A stretch of DNA of 22,498 nt, from the IMG/VR virus record IMGVR_UViG_3300000117_000295, positions 6-22,503 of that record; one strand, written 5' to 3'. Shown piece by piece: positions 5,212 through 15,778 of this stretch. Origin of the DNA: a virus. Below the pieces are notes generated by a model, which did no database searches, had not been told where the DNA came from, and saw only the letters and a list, made by a program, of their open reading frames with translations. The position numbers and the translations under genes were made by a program. Position 1 is the first letter of the stretch; every line of letters begins with the position of its first letter.

Positions 5212-6990
5212 ATGTTTTTAGGATTACTCACACTACTAGTTGCAATCAGTATCAGCGTTATTGCTGCATATTACAGTATACTTGGACTGACAGCAATTTT
5301 TGCTGCAGCATTTTTGCCTATTGTATTGATGGGCAGTGTGCTAGAAGTAGGCAAGATACTTGCCACAGTGTGGTTACACATACACTGGAAACGTGCGCCA
5401 TTTATAATCAAAGGCTACTTGACAAGTGCAGTGATTGTACTGATGTTTATCACAAGCATGGGCGTGTTTGGTTTCTTATCCAAGTCGCACATTGAACAAA
5501 GCAGTGTGGGTACAGAACAGATTGCACAAGCAGAAGTTATTGATCAAAAGATTGCCAGAGCGCAAGCAAAACAAGCACGTTGGTCAGAAGAAATTGATAG
5601 ACTACAAGCAGGTGAAACAAGTGGCAGAGTTGATGCACTAATTGAACGTGAGCGTGAGCGTATCAAGGATGCAAGAGCAAGTTTAGCACCGCAAATAAAA
5701 GCAGAGAATGATAAGATTCCTGGACTGCGTGAACAAGCAGAACGTGAAGTAGCACAGCAAAACAAACGTTTGAGTGATGCACAAAGTCGTAGTGCAGAGG
5801 CTATTAAAGTTGCACAACAAGAACTTGACAGACTGGATGCAGATGTACTTGCTTACACCAAACAAGGTCAAGCAAGAACAGGAGCATTTGGCGGCACAAC
5901 AGACATGGTTGCCAAAGGAAATGAACTACGCAAGAAACAACAACGTGAACGCAGTAAACTACAAGGTGATATAGACAAAGCAAAGAGTGCAGAAGTCAGT
6001 GTTGCCAGTGCAGTGCAACGTGAAATAACAAAAATAAACAATCGCCTTGCAGAGCAAATAAAAGAAGTAGAAGCTCGTATTGCAGACATACGCAAAACCG
6101 TTGGGCCTACTATTGCAAGTGCAAATGAAAATATTGCAAAGTATACCACACAAGCAGGAAGTTCAAACAAGGACATTGATGCTCGCATTGATGAACTTGA
6201 GAACCAGATTGATGCACTACAGCCAACTATAGATACATTGCGTGAAGATAAGTTTGTATTTGAAAAAAATTATAGACAGTTTGAAGCAGAAGTTGGCCCT
6301 GTAAAATACATAGCAGAACTTATATATGGTGAAGCAGATCGCAGTCAACTAGAAGAAGCAGTGCGTTGGGTAATCATTATCATTGTTGCAGTGTTTGATC
6401 CGCTTGCTATTTGTTTGGTGCTTGCAGGTGTGATGAGTATAAGTTGGTGGCGCCAAGAGCGTGGACTTAATAAACCTAAACAAAAGATAGTAAGAGCTAC
6501 TGATCCAAGAATAGAGGAACTAGAAATGGAACTTAAAAAACACAATGATGTATTGGCTGAGATTGAAAAACTGTTAGACGGCAATCTTGCTAATGTAGAT
6601 CCTGCAAAACATGCAGAACTAGTTGAAGAACGTGATTCATTATTAGAAACAATAGCAACTCTTGAAGCACAAATTGCAACACTCAAAGCAGACAGTGATG
6701 TACTAGTGGATAAAGTTGTTGAAACTGAAGCAGAACGTGATACTTACAAAAAGCAACTGGATGAGATAGCCGCAGGTGCAGAAGCATTGGGTGCTAGAGA
6801 AGAAGAATTACTTAAAAAGATTGCTGAACAAGAAGCAGAGATTGAACGCCGTGATGCAGTGGTTATTAAAATGGCAGAAAAATATCAACTGGTTGAAAAA
6901 GATGAGTTTGCTGAAGGACTTGAGGCACAAGCACAACAACAAGATGATACACTTGCATTTATGCAACCAAAAAAGGACAACGAGTCCTAA
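5212..6990 (+). CDS. Large membrane coiled-coil protein, 592 aa (zero-frame product)
   Basis: Three hydrophobic segments near the N-terminus (about 2-20, 22-45, 68-90), a long charged coiled coil (about 95-375, rich in Gln, Ala, Glu and Lys), a fourth membrane segment (384-413, with AVFDPLAICLVLAGVM), then a second coiled coil (about 425-570). This resembles membrane-anchored coiled-coil scaffolds; no function is recognised. Transcription probably starts at the ATG from the promoter at 5177. The gene ends in a cassette (A AAA AAG plus stem-loop) that predicts a share of ribosomes shift to -1 and make a 691-residue form. No close homologue is known to me. Confidence 0.85.
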   Translation: MFLGLLTLLVAISISVIAAYYSILGLTAIFAAAFLPIVLMGSVLEVGKILATVWLHIHWKRAPFIIKGYLTSAVIVLMFITSMGVFGFLSKSHIEQSSVGTEQIAQAEVIDQKIARAQAKQARWSEEIDRLQAGETSGRVDALIERERERIKDARASLAPQIKAENDKIPGLREQAEREVAQQNKRLSDAQSRSAEAIKVAQQELDRLDADVLAYTKQGQARTGAFGGTTDMVAKGNELRKKQQRERSKLQGDIDKAKSAEVSVASAVQREITKINNRLAEQIKEVEARIADIRKTVGPTIASANENIAKYTTQAGSSNKDIDARIDELENQIDALQPTIDTLREDKFVFEKNYRQFEAEVGPVKYIAELIYGEADRSQLEEAVRWVIIIIVAVFDPLAICLVLAGVMSISWWRQERGLNKPKQKIVRATDPRIEELEMELKKHNDVLAEIEKLLDGNLANVDPAKHAELVEERDSLLETIATLEAQIATLKADSDVLVDKVVETEAERDTYKKQLDEIAAGAEALGAREEELLKKIAEQEAEIERRDAVVIKMAEKYQLVEKDEFAEGLEAQAQQQDDTLAFMQPKKDNES

Positions 6991-7018
6991 CTCCTAATAC
7001 GGCTGTTGTTGAGGACTC
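6969..7018 (+). other. Predicted programmed -1 ribosomal frameshift site
   Basis: The heptamer A AAA AAG (6969-6975) is in the correct phase of the 592-aa gene (CCA AAA AAG) and is the slippery sequence used by E. coli dnaX. After a 6-base spacer, GAGTCC (6982-6987) pairs with GGACTC (7013-7018). The stem extends through TAAC (6988-6991) with GTT-A, skipping one bulged G at 7011, to 10 bp. The zero-frame stop TAA (6988-6990) lies inside this stem. The -1 frame stays open from there to 7286. Confidence 0.75.
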
Positions 7019-7286
7019 TGCAAACATTGTTGCAGCCAATGCACACTTTGGAACTAGTTTTCCTACCCATGCAAACAAAGGTGATGTGTTTACAAGAGTA
7101 GATGTGTTACCACACAAAATATTTAGATATGATGGTGACAAGTGGTTTGAAATAAACAAACTTCAAACCAGTGTGTACTTAGACAACCAAGGTTATGTTG
7201 AGCAACTGAGAAAAGACGTAAGTAGCGGTAAGATTGATAAAGACGATCTCACTGATGATGAAAGAGCAGAACTATTCAATGAGTAA
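6975..7286 (+). CDS. -1 frame extension domain of the 592-aa protein
   Basis: 103 codons in the -1 frame, beginning GQRVLTPNTAVV and ending DDERAELFNE. The frame opens after a stop at 6945-6947 and contains no ATG at all; the first GTG is at 7086 and would cut the coding-like stretch in half. A frameshift at 6969-6975 joins it to residue K588 of the upstream protein, giving about 691 aa. The middle (PHKIFRYDGDKWFEINK) resembles small beta-strand repeats of phage structural proteins, and the end is an acidic helix. If the shift is not real, a protein of about 66 aa from GTG 7086 is the fallback. Confidence 0.7.
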   Translation, partial: GQRVLTPNTAVVEDSANIVAANAHFGTSFPTHANKGDVFTRVDVLPHKIFRYDGDKWFEINKLQTSVYLDNQGYVEQLRKDVSSGKIDKDDLTDDERAELFNE

Positions 7287-7638: not shown

Positions 7639-7866
7639 ATGGCTTATAGAGAACCAAGACCAAAACAGGGTTTGACAGTAGAAGTACGCAACAATGACAT
7701 CAATCGTGCATGGCGTAAGCTCAAGCGTAGATTACAAGACGAAGGCATTATGCAAGAAATTCGCGACCGCAAACATTTTATCAAACCCAGTGAAAAACGT
7801 GCCAGAGCAAAGGCAGCAGGAAGAAAACGTTGGCTTAAGAAGAAACGCGAAATTGAGAATCAATAG
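7639..7866 (+). CDS. rpsU: Ribosomal protein bS21
   Basis: 75 aa, highly basic, with typical bS21 features: an N-terminal strand followed by NNDINRAWRKLKRRL, then a long Arg/Lys helix (KRARAKAAGRKRWLKKK). bS21 sits near the anti-Shine-Dalgarno end of 16S rRNA in the 30S subunit and aids initiation. Phage versions are known, mainly from marine phages, and are thought to exchange into host ribosomes to favour phage mRNA. GAGG just upstream and direct abutment with the preceding gene suggest co-translation. Many phage mRNAs here look leaderless, so a phage bS21 may matter for start selection; that link is inference. Confidence 0.9.
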   Translation: MAYREPRPKQGLTVEVRNNDINRAWRKLKRRLQDEGIMQEIRDRKHFIKPSEKRARAKAAGRKRWLKKKREIENQ

Positions 7867-7982: not shown

Positions 7983-8411
7983 ATGACAAGATTAACCTCA
8001 CTCGACATCAATAAACTAACACCCTATGCAGTAGGCTTTGACAGAGTCTTTGATAACATGCATCGTTATCTTGAACATCAAGCCACCAGCAGTGGTTACC
8101 CACCTTACAACATTGTGAAAGATGGAAACAACTTCCAAATTGAAATTGCACTAGCAGGTGTAAAAATGGAAGATTTGGACATCGAAGTTGCAGAGGGTGT
8201 GTTAACAATCACACACGAACCACAAAGCGAAGATGAAAAAGTAGGCTTTGTTCATCGTGGTATTGCACAGCGTAAATTTAAACGTAATTTTACACTTGCT
8301 GATGATGTGGTTGTAAATGGTGCACGTTTAGAAAACGGTATGCTTTACATTGCACTTGAGCGTATCATCCCAGAAGAAAAGCAGCCTCGCAAGATTGCAA
8401 TTGAGGGCTAA
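7983..8411 (+). CDS. Hsp20 / IbpA-like small heat-shock protein
   Basis: 142 aa with a standard alpha-crystallin domain (about 40-132): FQIEIALAGVKMEDLDIEV, GVLTI, then ARLENGMLYIALER, and a C-terminal IAI that matches the IxI motif used for oligomer assembly. It is an ATP-independent holdase that binds unfolding proteins. Hsp20 genes are common in marine T4-like phages, where a role in virion protein folding or stress tolerance is assumed. Its own box at 7869 and a ROSE-like leader suggest temperature-controlled translation. The closest neighbours, bS21 and ClpS, also act in protein synthesis and quality control. Confidence 0.92.
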   Translation: MTRLTSLDINKLTPYAVGFDRVFDNMHRYLEHQATSSGYPPYNIVKDGNNFQIEIALAGVKMEDLDIEVAEGVLTITHEPQSEDEKVGFVHRGIAQRKFKRNFTLADDVVVNGARLENGMLYIALERIIPEEKQPRKIAIEG

Positions 8412-8465: not shown

Positions 8466-8777
8466 ATGAGTCAACAAGAATTGACAAAAACCCGTGTTAG
8501 AGAACGCAGTATTGAATTGCAACCACCTAGTGATTATAAAGTGATTTATCTCAACGACGACAAAACCACATTTGAGTTTGTGATTGACAGTCTAAAAACC
8601 ACATTTGATTACAGTGAAGATCCAGCAGTGGACAAGGCAATGGAAATCAGTGAAAGTGGAGCAGGTGTGGTCGCAGTAATGCCTTTTGAGATAGCAGAAC
8701 AAAAAGGTGTAGAAGTGCTGATGCGAGCTCGTAACGAAGGTTTTCCACTTGAAGTAAGACTTGAACAATCAGAATAA
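8466..8777 (+). CDS. clpS: ClpS adaptor homologue (N-end rule)
   Basis: 103 aa, the normal ClpS length. A flexible N-terminal arm (1-19) precedes the core PPSDYKVIYLNDDKTTFEFVID and the helix AMEISESGAGVVAVMPFEIAE. ClpS delivers proteins with N-terminal Leu, Phe, Tyr or Trp to ClpAP and blocks SsrA-tagged substrates. N30 and D31 of the substrate pocket are kept, but the usual His (E. coli H66) aligns with S62, and the gatekeeper Met (E. coli M40) with F37. Specificity may therefore differ from the host's. AGGAG lies 6 bases upstream, behind a strong hairpin. No clpA is in the window, so it must act on host ClpA. Confidence 0.9.
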   Translation: MSQQELTKTRVRERSIELQPPSDYKVIYLNDDKTTFEFVIDSLKTTFDYSEDPAVDKAMEISESGAGVVAVMPFEIAEQKGVEVLMRARNEGFPLEVRLEQSE

Positions 8778-8807: not shown

Positions 8808-9890
8808 ATGAACATAGAACAAGATCTAAAGTTAGACTACAGTGGTGTGTTGTTGCGACCAAAGCGTAGCACACTAAGTTCGAGAAAACAAGTGCGTCTA
8901 GAACGCACACACACATTTCGCAACAGCAGACAAACATTTGAACGTATTCCAATCATGGCAGCAAACATGGATGGTGTTGGCACCTTTGATATGGCAGACA
9001 CACTTGGACAACTGGGATTGTTTACCTGTTTGATTAAAACCTATGGTATTAATCAGTTGGTGAGTTTTTTTGTAGACCAACCCAGTAGAGCAGAATACAC
9101 AGCATACAGCATGGGCATCACAGATGATGATGCTGCAAAGTTTCGTGCAGTGTACACTGGTGCACCTACAATTAAGTATGTGTGTGTAGATGTGGCAAAT
9201 GGTTACAGCGAACGCTTTCTTAACACTGTTACTCAACTGCGACAAGAATATCCTGAAGTTACAATCATTGCTGGCAATGTTGTGACAGCAGATCAAACAC
9301 AAGAACTAATACTAAGAGGAGTAGACATTGTTAAAGTTGGTATTGGCCCAGGTAGTGTGTGTACTACTCGTATTAAGACTGGAGTGGGTTATCCGCAACT
9401 ATCAGCAGTTATTGAGTGTGCGGATGCTGCACACGGATTGGATGGACATGTTATTGCTGACGGCGGCTGTGTTAGTAGCGGTGATGTCGCCAAAGCATTT
9501 GCTGGAGGCGCTGACTTTGTTATGCTTGGCGGCATGTTGGCTGGGCATGACGAAGGCGGAGGCGAAGTAATTACCAAACATTACTACACAGATGAACTAG
9601 CAGATCGTATTGGCAATCGTGTGATAGCAGAAAAAAAGTTTGTACAGTTTTATGGCATGAGCAGTGATGCTGCAAATCTCAAGCATTTTGGTGGACTCAA
9701 AGATTATCGTAGCAGTGAAGGCAGAGAAGTGCTAGTGCCATACAGAGGTGCTATTGCTAACACAGTGCAAGACATACTAGGTGGGATACGCAGCAGTTGT
9801 ACATATGTTGGTGCTAATAAATTAAAGCATTTACCCAAGTGTGCTACATTTATTCGCTGTGCAGATACACACAACAGGGTATATGAATAA
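8808..9890 (+). CDS. guaC: GMP reductase
   Basis: 360 aa, close to E. coli GuaC (347 aa), with extended identity by eye. It starts with NIEQDLKLDYSGVLLRPKRST and carries ANMDGVGTF, CVDVANGYSE and IVKVGIGPGSVCTTR, with C185 as the catalytic Cys. The IMPDH-style CBS insert is absent. The signature AYRG-type end (VPYRGAIANT, then DILGGIRSSCTYVGA) also fits GuaC, not GuaB. The enzyme reduces GMP to IMP with NADPH, letting guanine nucleotides be turned into adenine nucleotides. There is only a weak ribosome site; a poor TTGAAC/TACAAT pair (8761-8787, 15-base spacer) is not convincing. The stop overlaps the next ATG (TAATG). Confidence 0.92.
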   Translation: MNIEQDLKLDYSGVLLRPKRSTLSSRKQVRLERTHTFRNSRQTFERIPIMAANMDGVGTFDMADTLGQLGLFTCLIKTYGINQLVSFFVDQPSRAEYTAYSMGITDDDAAKFRAVYTGAPTIKYVCVDVANGYSERFLNTVTQLRQEYPEVTIIAGNVVTADQTQELILRGVDIVKVGIGPGSVCTTRIKTGVGYPQLSAVIECADAAHGLDGHVIADGGCVSSGDVAKAFAGGADFVMLGGMLAGHDEGGGEVITKHYYTDELADRIGNRVIAEKKFVQFYGMSSDAANLKHFGGLKDYRSSEGREVLVPYRGAIANTVQDILGGIRSSCTYVGANKLKHLPKCATFIRCADTHNRVYE

Positions 9891-12344: not shown

Positions 12345-13190
12345 ATGTTTATGCGTATTATACCCATACTCTTAACGCTAGTACTCGCCGGATGTGGAGC
12401 ACACACTACAGGTGTACACAAGCAACCTGAACTAGCCCCTTTGCCAGTGCCTGTTATAGCAGAGCTCCCTGAGTTAGATGGCCAAAAGATTCCAATTGCA
12501 GTATATGGTTTTTTAGACAAAACAGGACAGCGCAAACCCAACGAAAGATTTAGTCAACTAAGTTCAGCAGTCACACAAGGTGCTGAAGTGTATGTTATTG
12601 ACGCACTTAAAAACATAGGCAACGAAACTTGGTTCACAGTATTAGAACGTAACAGTTTACAAAACCTCACAAAAGAAAGACAACTCATCCGTAGCACAGC
12701 AGAAACCTTTGATGATGGCAAATCGCCTCTCAAGGCACTAAAGTATGCTGGCTTGCTTATTGATGGTGGTGTTGTGGGGTATGACAGTAATATCACTAGC
12801 GGAGGCATAGGTGCAAGATACTTTGGTATTGGCGCTAGTACAGAATATAGAACAGATCAAATAACAGTAGCAATGCGTATCATCAGTGTACAAACCGGTG
12901 AAATATTGCTTACAGTGTTGACTCAAAAAAGCATCGCAAGTCACAGTAGTGGCGCAGATGTATTTAGGTTCCTTGATTTAGGTACCAAAGCCCTGGAGGT
13001 TGAGGCAGGGATGGCGGTGAACGAACCTACTAGTTATGCAGTAAAAGCAGCAGTCGAAGCAGCGGTTGCAGAACTGGTAAAACAAGGAGAACAAAAAGGC
13101 TTTTGGAAATTCAAAGGAAAAAACTATGGCAATGTACCCATTGGTTATTATCCTAACGGAAAGCCCAAAACTGCAGGAGAAAACAAATGA
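12345..13190 (+). CDS. csgG: Curli secretion channel lipoprotein CsgG
   Basis: 281 aa (E. coli 277). The lipobox LAGC puts the lipidated Cys at 17, as in CsgG. Family blocks are clear: IPIAVYGFLDKTGQ, AVTQGAEVYVIDAL, WFTVLERNSLQNLTKERQ, GGIGARYFGIGAS and the C-terminal SYAVKAAVEAAVAELVKQG. CsgG forms a nonameric outer-membrane pore that exports curlin subunits. The loop after RKP that forms the constriction (Y51, N55, F56 in mature E. coli CsgG) reads NERFSQL, so the pore eyelet differs. The gene starts 3 bases after csgF and overlaps the curlin gene by ATGA. Only a weak ribosome site is present, suggesting coupling to csgF. Confidence 0.93.
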   Translation: MFMRIIPILLTLVLAGCGAHTTGVHKQPELAPLPVPVIAELPELDGQKIPIAVYGFLDKTGQRKPNERFSQLSSAVTQGAEVYVIDALKNIGNETWFTVLERNSLQNLTKERQLIRSTAETFDDGKSPLKALKYAGLLIDGGVVGYDSNITSGGIGARYFGIGASTEYRTDQITVAMRIISVQTGEILLTVLTQKSIASHSSGADVFRFLDLGTKALEVEAGMAVNEPTSYAVKAAVEAAVAELVKQGEQKGFWKFKGKNYGNVPIGYYPNGKPKTAGENK

Positions 13191-13906
13191 GAAGCGCAGT
13201 AAAATTGTTGGCTATCTCGAGCATTGTACTTTTTTCAAGTATGGCATTTGCAAATGACATTTACATTACGCAAAGTGGCGATACCTTGGATTTAGACATT
13301 GTACAAGATGGTACCGACAACGTAATCGGAAATTCAACCACCGCAGTAAGCCTAACCGGCGATGATATGTCATTTGACATTAATCAGACTGGTAGTTATA
13401 ACACTATAACTGCAGTCATCAAAGGTGATACTTACACAGGTGATTGGGACATTACAGGTGATAGTAACGAAATAGATTTGTTATGTAGTAGCACAACCAC
13501 AGGTAGTTGTGATACAGTAACATTGACTGTTGCTGCAACTGGTGATGACAACGATTTCACAATCAACATTGGTGAAACCAGTGATAGTGATAGTGCAACT
13601 GTAGCCTTTACAGTAACAGGCGACAACAACATTATCGATTCTACACTAAATGGTACAAATGCAAACATTACCGTAGCACTTAATAACAGTGCTAGTCTAT
13701 CAACTAACAGTGCAAACAGTGACGAAGGCGTTGCAGTTACACTTGATGTGAGTGGAAACGGTGATAGTGCAGGACATACTGTTGACCTAGATATCACAGG
13801 TGGCGGCGGTACTGTTGATGTTACACAAAGTGGCATCTACGACAATACTGTTGATCTAACCATTGCTGGTGATGACTTCGATGTTGACATTAGCCAGAGC
13901 GACTAA
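13187..13906 (+). CDS. Curlin-like secreted repeat protein 1 (candidate amyloid)
   Basis: 239 aa. A signal peptide (1-22, ending MAFA) is followed by NDIYITQSGD and IVQDGTDNVI, which fit the curlin pattern of Q-x-G-x-x-N repeats. The rest is a series of 20-25-residue units rich in Thr, Asp, Gly and Asn (TGDDMSFDINQTGSYNTI, TGDDNDFTINIG, TGDNNIID, VTQSGIYDNTVDL), very acidic, almost free of Lys and Arg, with two Cys near 95-105. The repeats are looser than in E. coli CsgA. It overlaps csgG by ATGA, as expected for a substrate of that channel. A long beta-solenoid or amyloid is predicted; polymerisation is unproven. Confidence 0.8.
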   Translation: MRSAVKLLAISSIVLFSSMAFANDIYITQSGDTLDLDIVQDGTDNVIGNSTTAVSLTGDDMSFDINQTGSYNTITAVIKGDTYTGDWDITGDSNEIDLLCSSTTTGSCDTVTLTVAATGDDNDFTINIGETSDSDSATVAFTVTGDNNIIDSTLNGTNANITVALNNSASLSTNSANSDEGVAVTLDVSGNGDSAGHTVDLDITGGGGTVDVTQSGIYDNTVDLTIAGDDFDVDISQSD

Positions 13907-13908
13907 CA

Positions 13909-15042
13909 ATGTATAGAACAGTTTTCGTAACTCTTACATTGTTAGTTCTCTCGGCCACGCAGGGACTCGCCTCCATAGGTGATGTTATTGAACAAAAAGG
14001 CAATAGCATGATTGAGCGCCGTGGAGGCGAAGAACTGTTGGTGGACAAAGGAACAGATGTTGAAAGTTATGATACTGTTAAAACAGCAAAAGGTCGAACT
14101 GCTATTGAGTTTGTTGACGACACGCGAGTAGATGTCACTGAACACAGTAAACTTGTTATAGACGAATTCGTCTATGACCCTAACACAAAGACTGGTGCTC
14201 TAAGTATAAAGGCAGCACTTGGCACAATTCGCTATGCCAGCGGTCAAATAGCAAAGAATTCTAGACAGAACATTAAGATAAGAACTCCCACTGCAACTAT
14301 TGCTGTACGCGGTACAGACTTTAGTATGAGTGTGGATGAGTTTGGTCAAAGTACTGTAATACTGTTACCCAGTTGTACACAAATAGGAAGCAAAGCATTG
14401 TGTACAGTTGGAGAAATCTCTGTGGAGTCGGACATGGGACAAGTAGTTCTCAACCAAGCCTTCCAAGCCACTACTGTTTCAGCTATTGATTCAGCTCCAC
14501 AGAGACCCTTGCTACTAGATCCAGACGAAACATTCATCAACAATCTTATAATTGTGCGCAAACCTGTGTACGATGATGAAGAACTAGAACGGCAGAGAGC
14601 AAAGCAAATAGCCAATATATTAGACATAGACTTTTTAGAGATTGATGTTCTTGAACGAGACTTGCTTTACTTGGATGAAGAAGACACATGGTATACACTA
14701 TTGGATTACGATCCTCTGGCACTGGAGTTTTTATTTGATGCACTAGAAGCAAGTAATAAAAGACTAGCGGCAATTCTAAAAAGTGAGTTTGATGACATTT
14801 TTAATGAAACAATATTTGGATATGATCCGATATTGAACATTGCAATCACAGATGAAAATCCTGACTTTGTTGTAATAAGAGACAGCGGTACAGGAAATTA
14901 TATAAAACTGAGACTGAGCCAGAACTATGCTTATAACCTAACCATAGATCAAGGCGTAGGAAACAGGATAGACGATTTTAAGTTGAGTATAGACAGTGCG
15001 ATACCTGCTAGTAATGACATTAATATTTTTCAGTCTCAATAG
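13909..15042 (+). CDS. Exported FecR-domain protein, 377 aa
   Basis: Signal peptide 1-21 (LTLLVLSATQGLA). Residues about 22-165 form a FecR domain: ASIGDVIEQKGNSMIERRG, DTVKTAKGRTAIEFVDDTRVDV, SIKAALGTIRYASG and RTPTATIAVRGTDF are typical. These domains sit in the periplasm, in sigma-regulator proteins or as surface-associated modules. No transmembrane helix follows, so it is not a FecR-type signal transducer; it looks like a soluble periplasmic or secreted protein. The C-terminal part (210-377) is acidic with leucine-rich helices, then a beta-like end. It lies between the two curlin-like genes, 2 bases after the first, and may chaperone, anchor or gate their assembly; this is inference. Confidence 0.85.
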   Translation: MYRTVFVTLTLLVLSATQGLASIGDVIEQKGNSMIERRGGEELLVDKGTDVESYDTVKTAKGRTAIEFVDDTRVDVTEHSKLVIDEFVYDPNTKTGALSIKAALGTIRYASGQIAKNSRQNIKIRTPTATIAVRGTDFSMSVDEFGQSTVILLPSCTQIGSKALCTVGEISVESDMGQVVLNQAFQATTVSAIDSAPQRPLLLDPDETFINNLIIVRKPVYDDEELERQRAKQIANILDIDFLEIDVLERDLLYLDEEDTWYTLLDYDPLALEFLFDALEASNKRLAAILKSEFDDIFNETIFGYDPILNIAITDENPDFVVIRDSGTGNYIKLRLSQNYAYNLTIDQGVGNRIDDFKLSIDSAIPASNDINIFQSQ

Positions 15043-15778
15043 TTTTGCTAATGACATATTCATTACGCAAAGTGGTGATAACTTTGAGGCGTTGATAAAC
15101 CAAAAAGGTCAAAACCAACAGATCAAAGGTGGCAATACCATAATCAGTATTGACGGTGGCACTACCACAACAAGTGCTCCTATTGATGGTGATGACAACT
15201 ATGTAAAAGTCTTACAAGGCACAAGTAATACAAGCAACAACTTGGTAGAACTTGATGTTGCTGGTGATACAAACTCAGTTATTGTGCTACAAGATAGAAC
15301 TGACATGGGCAATGATGACACTACAGCATATGGCAATCACACCAGCAGTATAAGATTGTTAGGAGACAACAACAATGTCAATACCATACAACGCAACAAT
15401 GGCACAAATGCTCAACAAGGACACAGTGTGGCAATAGACATAATAGGTAGCGGGACAGATATAGATGTAAAACAAATATCAGACTATGGCAAAACTGCAA
15501 ACTTAGACATAGATGCAGATGATGTAACAGTTGACATCTATCAAAACGGACACGGAAATCACACCATCAACTTGGATGTTGATAATAATGGAAGTACATT
15601 TGATTTAGACCAAGGATACAATCCTGGCAGCACTGGGCATGATATGAACATATCTACCAGCGGTGCTTATGCCAGCACTATAACAGTGGATCAACAAAGT
15701 AACACAGCACAAAGTTATTCACTATCACAAGACTGTCAAACCACAGGCGGTTGTTCAGTAGCCGTAACACAATACTGA
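14996..15778 (+). CDS. Curlin-like secreted repeat protein 2 (candidate amyloid)
   Basis: 260 aa from the GTG at 14996, giving the signal peptide MRYLLVMTLIFFSLNSFA; an ATG at 15014 is a shorter option that loses the basic residue. The mature start NDIFITQSGDNFEALINQKG mirrors the first curlin-like protein (NDIYITQSGD). Repeats continue as QxG/N-type units: DGDDNYVKVLQG, AGDTNSVIVLQD, LGDNNNVNTIQRN, VDIYQNGHGNHTI and ITVDQQSN. The end carries two Cys (QDCQTTGGCSVAVTQY). It overlaps the FecR gene by 47 bases in another frame. By analogy with csgA and csgB, one of the pair may nucleate and the other polymerise; which is which cannot be said. Confidence 0.8.
   Translation: MRYLLVMTLIFFSLNSFANDIFITQSGDNFEALINQKGQNQQIKGGNTIISIDGGTTTTSAPIDGDDNYVKVLQGTSNTSNNLVELDVAGDTNSVIVLQDRTDMGNDDTTAYGNHTSSIRLLGDNNNVNTIQRNNGTNAQQGHSVAIDIIGSGTDIDVKQISDYGKTANLDIDADDVTVDIYQNGHGNHTINLDVDNNGSTFDLDQGYNPGSTGHDMNISTSGAYASTITVDQQSNTAQSYSLSQDCQTTGGCSVAVTQY

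Follow-up and report, generated by a model that had tools for sequence, protein, structure and literature searches.

Does the membrane coiled-coil gene at positions 5,212 to 6,990 give rise to one protein or to two, and, if two, by which mechanism? The gene lies in a stretch of viral DNA of 22,498 nucleotides, here called the window, which covers almost the whole of a 22,503-base virus record (IMG/VR IMGVR_UViG_3300000117_000295). An earlier note on this DNA had proposed that a dnaX-style -1 frameshift joins the gene to a downstream domain without an ATG. Reading the sequence directly, we found A_AAA_AAG in phase at 6969-6975, within a zero frame that ends ...ATG CAA CCA AAA AAG GAC AAC GAG TCC TAA. 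The 10-bp stem was exactly as described in that note: it starts 6 nt past the heptamer, has one bulged G, and encloses the zero-frame stop; its loop is 16 nt long. Likewise, the -1 frame is open for 103 codons (coding 6975-7283, stop 7284-7286) and from 6975 translates as GQRVLTPNTAVVEDSANIVAANAHFGTSFPTHANKGDVFTRVDVLPHKIFRYDGDKWFEINK...; it has no early start codon, the first ATG, GTG or TTG being a GTG at 7086, within the conserved core. The short product is 592 aa, and the predicted long product is 588 + 103 = 691 aa. The features of the junction are the following:

5212-6990, + strand: zero-frame ORF for the 592-aa membrane coiled-coil protein (short product); the zero-frame part is conserved in all homologues
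6969-6975, + strand: slippery heptamer A_AAA_AAG, in phase; X_XXY_YYZ in 16/16 clade members
6976-6981, + strand: spacer GACAAC, 6 nt; every member examined has 5 or 6 nt here
6982-6991, + strand: 5' arm of the putative stimulatory stem, GAGTCCTAAC, containing the stop codon; based on folding and covariation
6988-6990, + strand: zero-frame stop TAA, read directly
7008-7018, + strand: 3' arm of the stem, GTTGAGGACTC, with one bulged G; based on folding and covariation
6975-7286, + strand: -1 frame C-terminal domain (C-domain), 103 aa plus stop; based on the C-domain alignment (n = 55), dN/dS and the lack of a start codon
7279-7638, + strand: next gene, 119 aa; its ATG falls within the last bases of the -1 frame, and this neighbor is conserved in the clade
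7639-7866, + strand: ribosomal protein bS21 (PF01165, E 1.1e-15), a conserved neighbor

Based on the sequence, programmed -1 ribosomal frameshifting at this site very probably sets the ratio of the short to the long form. Ribosomes at CCA_AAA_AAG would encounter the stem-loop 6 nt downstream; in a fraction of them, both tRNA-Lys would re-pair one base back on AAA_AAA, and decoding would continue with GGA CAA CGA..., while the remaining ribosomes would terminate 4 codons later to give the 592-aa form. The two proteins would share the membrane-anchored coiled-coil part, to which the long form would add the C-domain. At the inner membrane of the host, short and long forms may then come together in mixed oligomers, with only a fraction of the subunits carrying the C-domain. 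The occurrence and the rate of slippage, like this assembly, are inferences.

Conservation of the slippery heptamer

Using IMG/VR searches, we collected nearly 400 family loci, duplicates included. The window falls in a clade of 16 sequences, referred to as clade A (the window, L002-L007, L013, L018, L020, L023, L096, L133, L152, L178, and L180), whose members come from many separate metagenomes and have C-domains 41-89% identical to that of the window. The two ORFs are in a -1 relation in 16/16 members and never in a +1 relation; among all family loci checked, no overlapping +1 relation was found. An in-phase X_XXY_YYZ heptamer is present at the junction in 16/16 members, followed by the zero-frame stop after 0-12 nt, and occurs as AAAAAAG, AAAAAAA, AAAAAAC (L005), AAAAAAT (L020 and L180), and, once, CCCAAAG (L018). 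Elsewhere in these ORFs, such heptamers occupy 35 of 9349 in-phase positions, or ~2% for a stretch of six codons ahead of a stop, and the occurrence at all 16 junctions is therefore beyond chance. The earlier note had suggested aligning homologous genomes; once aligned, these kept the heptamer pattern and the stem, and the ORFs were out of phase throughout the window's clade.

The homopolymer run at the break and the continuous ORFs in the relatives L009 and L010 could also be taken to point to an indel from sequencing or assembly, or to a frameshift mutation of recent origin. However, 16 divergent sequences, drawn from many metagenomes, share the same -1 relation, together with a covarying stem and purifying selection, and the continuous relatives represent distant lineages. 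We consider the probability of such an artifact or recent mutation to be close to negligible. The note had named homologues with one continuous ORF as evidence against a programmed shift; these do exist (L009, L010, and most distant relatives), but they belong to other lineages and are not near-identical copies differing by ±1 base. They are, therefore, evidence that a fused product is functional rather than evidence of an indel in the window.

In the 22 nt 5' of the clade A site, no conserved Shine-Dalgarno (SD)-like stimulator was found. Thus, the heptamer and stem of the "dnaX-style" assignment held up, while the upstream SD-like element of dnaX is not conserved in the clade, and we classify the site as a general programmed -1 frameshift site rather than as a full copy of the dnaX type.

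Covariation supports a stem 3' of the heptamer

The arms of the stem begin 5-6 nt past the heptamer in every clade member examined, and the loops span 13-17 nt. The weight of the stem as evidence comes from its covariation and not from the folding energy in the window, where the hairpin alone is moderately unusual (-12.2 kcal/mol, z -2.1). In single-sequence folds, z ranges from -0.8 to -5.2 across members, that is, from modest to strong, with modest hairpins in L003, L018, L023, and L002 (z about -0.8 to -1.3). With arms placed by hand in each sequence, which favors pairing, 83/90 positions are paired across nine sequence clusters. When the 3' arms were permuted among clusters, a mean of 64 positions paired, and at least 83 did so in only 16/362,880 permutations, a comparison that corrects only partly for relatedness. 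Double-sided (compensatory) changes occur at 9/10 positions of the hand-placed stem. RNAalifold on a plain MAFFT alignment recovered six outer pairs, each of which shows double-sided changes; the automatic alignment supports these outer 6 pairs only, as opposed to the 10 pairs in the hand-placed arms.

The C-domain is under purifying selection

An alignment of 55 C-domains contains invariant G, D, P, W, K, Y, and E residues, and dN/dS between close pairs is 0.08-0.26, as expected under purifying selection. These data indicate that the -1 frame encodes a genuine domain.

A C-domain made alone, by internal initiation or by stop-restart coupling at the zero-frame stop, would fit with the position of this stop near the start of the domain. 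Moreover, the C-domain is encoded as a separate ORF in L038, L062, L079, L204, and L206, and in the first three of these, it has its own ATG behind a small coiled-coil gene (MAKPQ...). On the other hand, no ATG, GTG or TTG precedes the core in the -1 frame in 14/16 clade A members, and the upstream start codon in the two exceptions lacks an SD and is not kept in sister sequences. An independent start with a ribosome site, which would have spoken against a programmed shift, was sought in the clade, and none was found. Separate initiation also leaves the heptamer and the stem at fixed spacing unexplained, and we regard it as very improbable.

The predicted model of the C-domain has four strands plus helices (pLDDT 76). 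In fold comparisons, this model gave a good match to one uncultured-phage protein and nothing convincing in the PDB. Its matches to phage fiber-type proteins were weak and covered short stretches. Among PHROGs, the C-domain had a weak match to phrog_11591, "virion structural protein" (E 1e-4 to 4e-7), which is too weak to name a function; the domain resembles phage structural proteins only weakly. Neither the membrane part nor the C-domain matched a Pfam family above the cut-off.

Ribosomal or transcriptional slippage

The long form could also result from transcriptional slippage, in which RNA polymerase adds or drops an A on the run and the edited mRNAs encode the fused product. In Thermus dnaX, transcriptional slippage occurs at a run of nine A, and in Roseiflexus IS630, it is mediated by a stem-loop 5'-adjacent to the run (PMC5009743). 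Of these two hallmarks, a run of ~9 and a 5'-adjacent stem-loop, clade A has neither. By contrast, three sister clades described below, B, C, and D, have an A9 run that makes them strong candidates for this mechanism; in B and D, the run is in addition immediately preceded by a hairpin, while clade C has the A9 alone. The run in clade A comprises only 6-7 A, and individual members have A_AAA_AAC or C_CCA_AAG in its place; the conserved structure of the clade lies 3' of the run, as expected for ribosomes, and no kept 5' hairpin was seen. Because the A run is short and replaceable and the 3' stem is at the usual spacing, ribosomal slippage is the best explanation for the window, and transcriptional slippage is very improbable there.

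In clade B (L103, L112, L264-L268, L270, L271, and L274), the run is A9-G in 10/10 members (e.g., L103:3635-3860), in the context GTA AAA AAA AAG in nine and CTA AAA AAA AAG in L265. Both frames are open for 69-84 codons after the A9 run. Given the -1 protein and the phage's own codon usage, the chance of such zero-frame openness is 0-0.02, and the overlap therefore looks dual-coded. The short form in clade B would gain its own C-terminus from this dual-coding overlap of ~70 codons. An AGG 10 nt before the run could be an internal SD. In clade C (L150 and L296-L314), the -1 shift is at A9 (A10 in L311), and part of the clade has a stem 3' of the A run. In clade D (L074, L377, L378, and L393, with L376 also listed), the -1 shift is likewise at A9.

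The hairpin directly 5' of the run was found in clade B, in the clade D member L074, and in L062, in which the first ORF breaks at an A9 run preceded by a perfect 5-bp hairpin. It was present at 12/13 of the frameshift runs first tested, the 12 being mostly related, vs 4/93 other runs of A8 or longer in the same loci. In L265, the hairpin carries compensatory changes, and the remaining clade D members can also form one; in L272, which is the closest fused relative of clade B, the A9 is in frame and the hairpin is absent. Because the A9 run resembles that of Thermus dnaX and the 5' stem-loop that of Roseiflexus IS630, our analysis suggests that polymerase slippage is at least as likely as ribosomal slippage in clades B and D.

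Trees of the transmembrane regions place clades B and C among fused relatives in one half, while the other half contains clades A and D; a grouping of A with D as a single clade was rejected (p-AU 0.001). The sequence context of the slip site also differs among clades A-D. Independent gains offer the simplest interpretation, with the direction of change left unfixed by the tree. We see an even chance that the family gained the -1 fusion of the same optional C-domain at least four times (A-D) and by two routes: ribosomal in clade A, and through A9 runs that may affect RNA polymerase elsewhere, with a 5' hairpin in B and D, clade B being dual-coded over ~70 codons with an alternative C-terminus.

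Fused and domain-less relatives

Both parts are encoded in one frame in 82 loci in one family survey and in 54 in a further one. That >100 distant relatives have this arrangement supports that the fused product is real elsewhere. A fused homologue (L010:3001-5037) is nested inside the frameshifting clade and has apparently lost the shift. In L022, also nested in the window's clade, the C-domain is missing, with the next gene immediately downstream; thus, the short form is evidently able to serve alone in some phages.

Comparing window:5500-6283 with L096:2337-3321, we observed that the coiled-coil region between the transmembrane helices is replaced in these otherwise syntenic relatives, which suggests that the segment is variable and perhaps related to recognition. 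A swapped frameshift cassette was rejected as an explanation for the near-identical junctions of L096 and the window, as the flanks show synteny at 74-85% and the difference lies in the middle coiled coil.

A DNA search of 50,697 phage records gave no match, and no cultured relative in the phage collection was found to share the gene arrangement. A protein search detected similarity to the membrane part only, with Pelagibacter phage Mosig as the best match; the C-domain was looked for in Mosig and not found. No relative was found in genome_contigs, and tRNA and Rfam scans of the window gave no match.

Protein architecture and gene neighborhood

By reading hydrophobic stretches, we located hydrophobic helices in the short product near residues 2-57, 64-92, and 386-410, together with a long helical region and a second helical region. 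The AF2 model of the fused homologue L010 has helices at 2-57, 64-369, and 375-417. Together, these predictions suggest that three transmembrane helices close to the N-terminus are followed by a long coiled coil lying to one side of the membrane, then by a fourth transmembrane helix and a second coiled coil. A fold search with a full-length fused homologue returned generic coiled-coil matches only.

Across much of the family, the neighboring genes encode bS21, Hsp20, ClpS, and often a GMP reductase-like protein, with a ClpX-like protein in some loci. In the window, bS21 is followed by Hsp20-like (7983-8411), ClpS-like (8466-8777), and GMP reductase-like (8808-9890) genes. By association only, these neighbors point to a role for the protein in host-cell takeover rather than in the virion. 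As a mechanism, we would first consider a mixed oligomer with a binding module on a minority of its subunits.

Separately, window:12345-18435 encodes CsgG (PF03783), two curli-like repeat proteins, a FecR-like protein, and a CHASE2-adenylate cyclase; 13187-13906 and 14996-15778 are curlin-like by eye. Pelagimyophages carry curli genes, and CsgA and CsgB were reported missing there (PMC7029224).

Comparison with known recoding systems

The signal in the window is of a type already known from bacterial -1 frameshifts, i.e., dnaX without its SD and IS elements. As in Escherichia coli dnaX (tau/gamma), A_AAA_AAG is followed by a stem-loop a few nt downstream, and two products have a common N-terminal part. 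However, the proteins are unrelated, the shift shortens the dnaX product while it lengthens that of the window, and clade A lacks a conserved counterpart of the dnaX SD-like element; in cso2, a proven site functions without such an upstream stimulator (PMC5009743). A further parallel with dnaX exists at the level of the family, where one lineage seems to rely on the ribosome and others on an A9 run as in Thermus dnaX (PMC5009743). Clades B and D, with their 5' hairpin and A9 run, are similar to the Roseiflexus IS630 and Thermus dnaX slippage sites; the window site, with its short run and 3' stem, is not. IS3-type transposase frameshifts use heptamers of the A_AAA_AAG family, often with a downstream structure (PMC4066793), but the window gene is no transposase and is conserved across many large phages.

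The phage frameshifts discussed in the literature consulted are chiefly those of tail assembly chaperones (PMC10885494). As with lambda gpG/gpGT, this is a phage gene in which a -1 shift close to the end of the first ORF would add a C-terminal domain to a minority of copies. In contrast to gpG/gpGT, it encodes a large membrane coiled-coil protein without a match to a tail-chaperone PHROG, and no tape-measure neighbor was seen in the family neighborhoods; we therefore rejected a tail assembly chaperone of the G/GT type. Searches of the open-access literature gave no earlier account of the gene family or of the recoding that recurs in it, and the pelagimyophage paper does not mention frameshifting (PMC7029224).

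Implications

Most of the well-supported programmed frameshifts of phages are in tail assembly chaperones; the one proposed here would lie in a quite different protein that is widespread in large aquatic phages, and annotators would gain a missed domain of ~100 aa per such genome. The family may be a second case besides dnaX in which two products are reached by slippage of the ribosome or of the polymerase, depending on the lineage. Because fused, split, shifted, and domain-less versions of one gene exist, the purpose of the ratio becomes testable. If true, four gains by two routes would be strong evidence that selection keeps a fixed short-to-long ratio.
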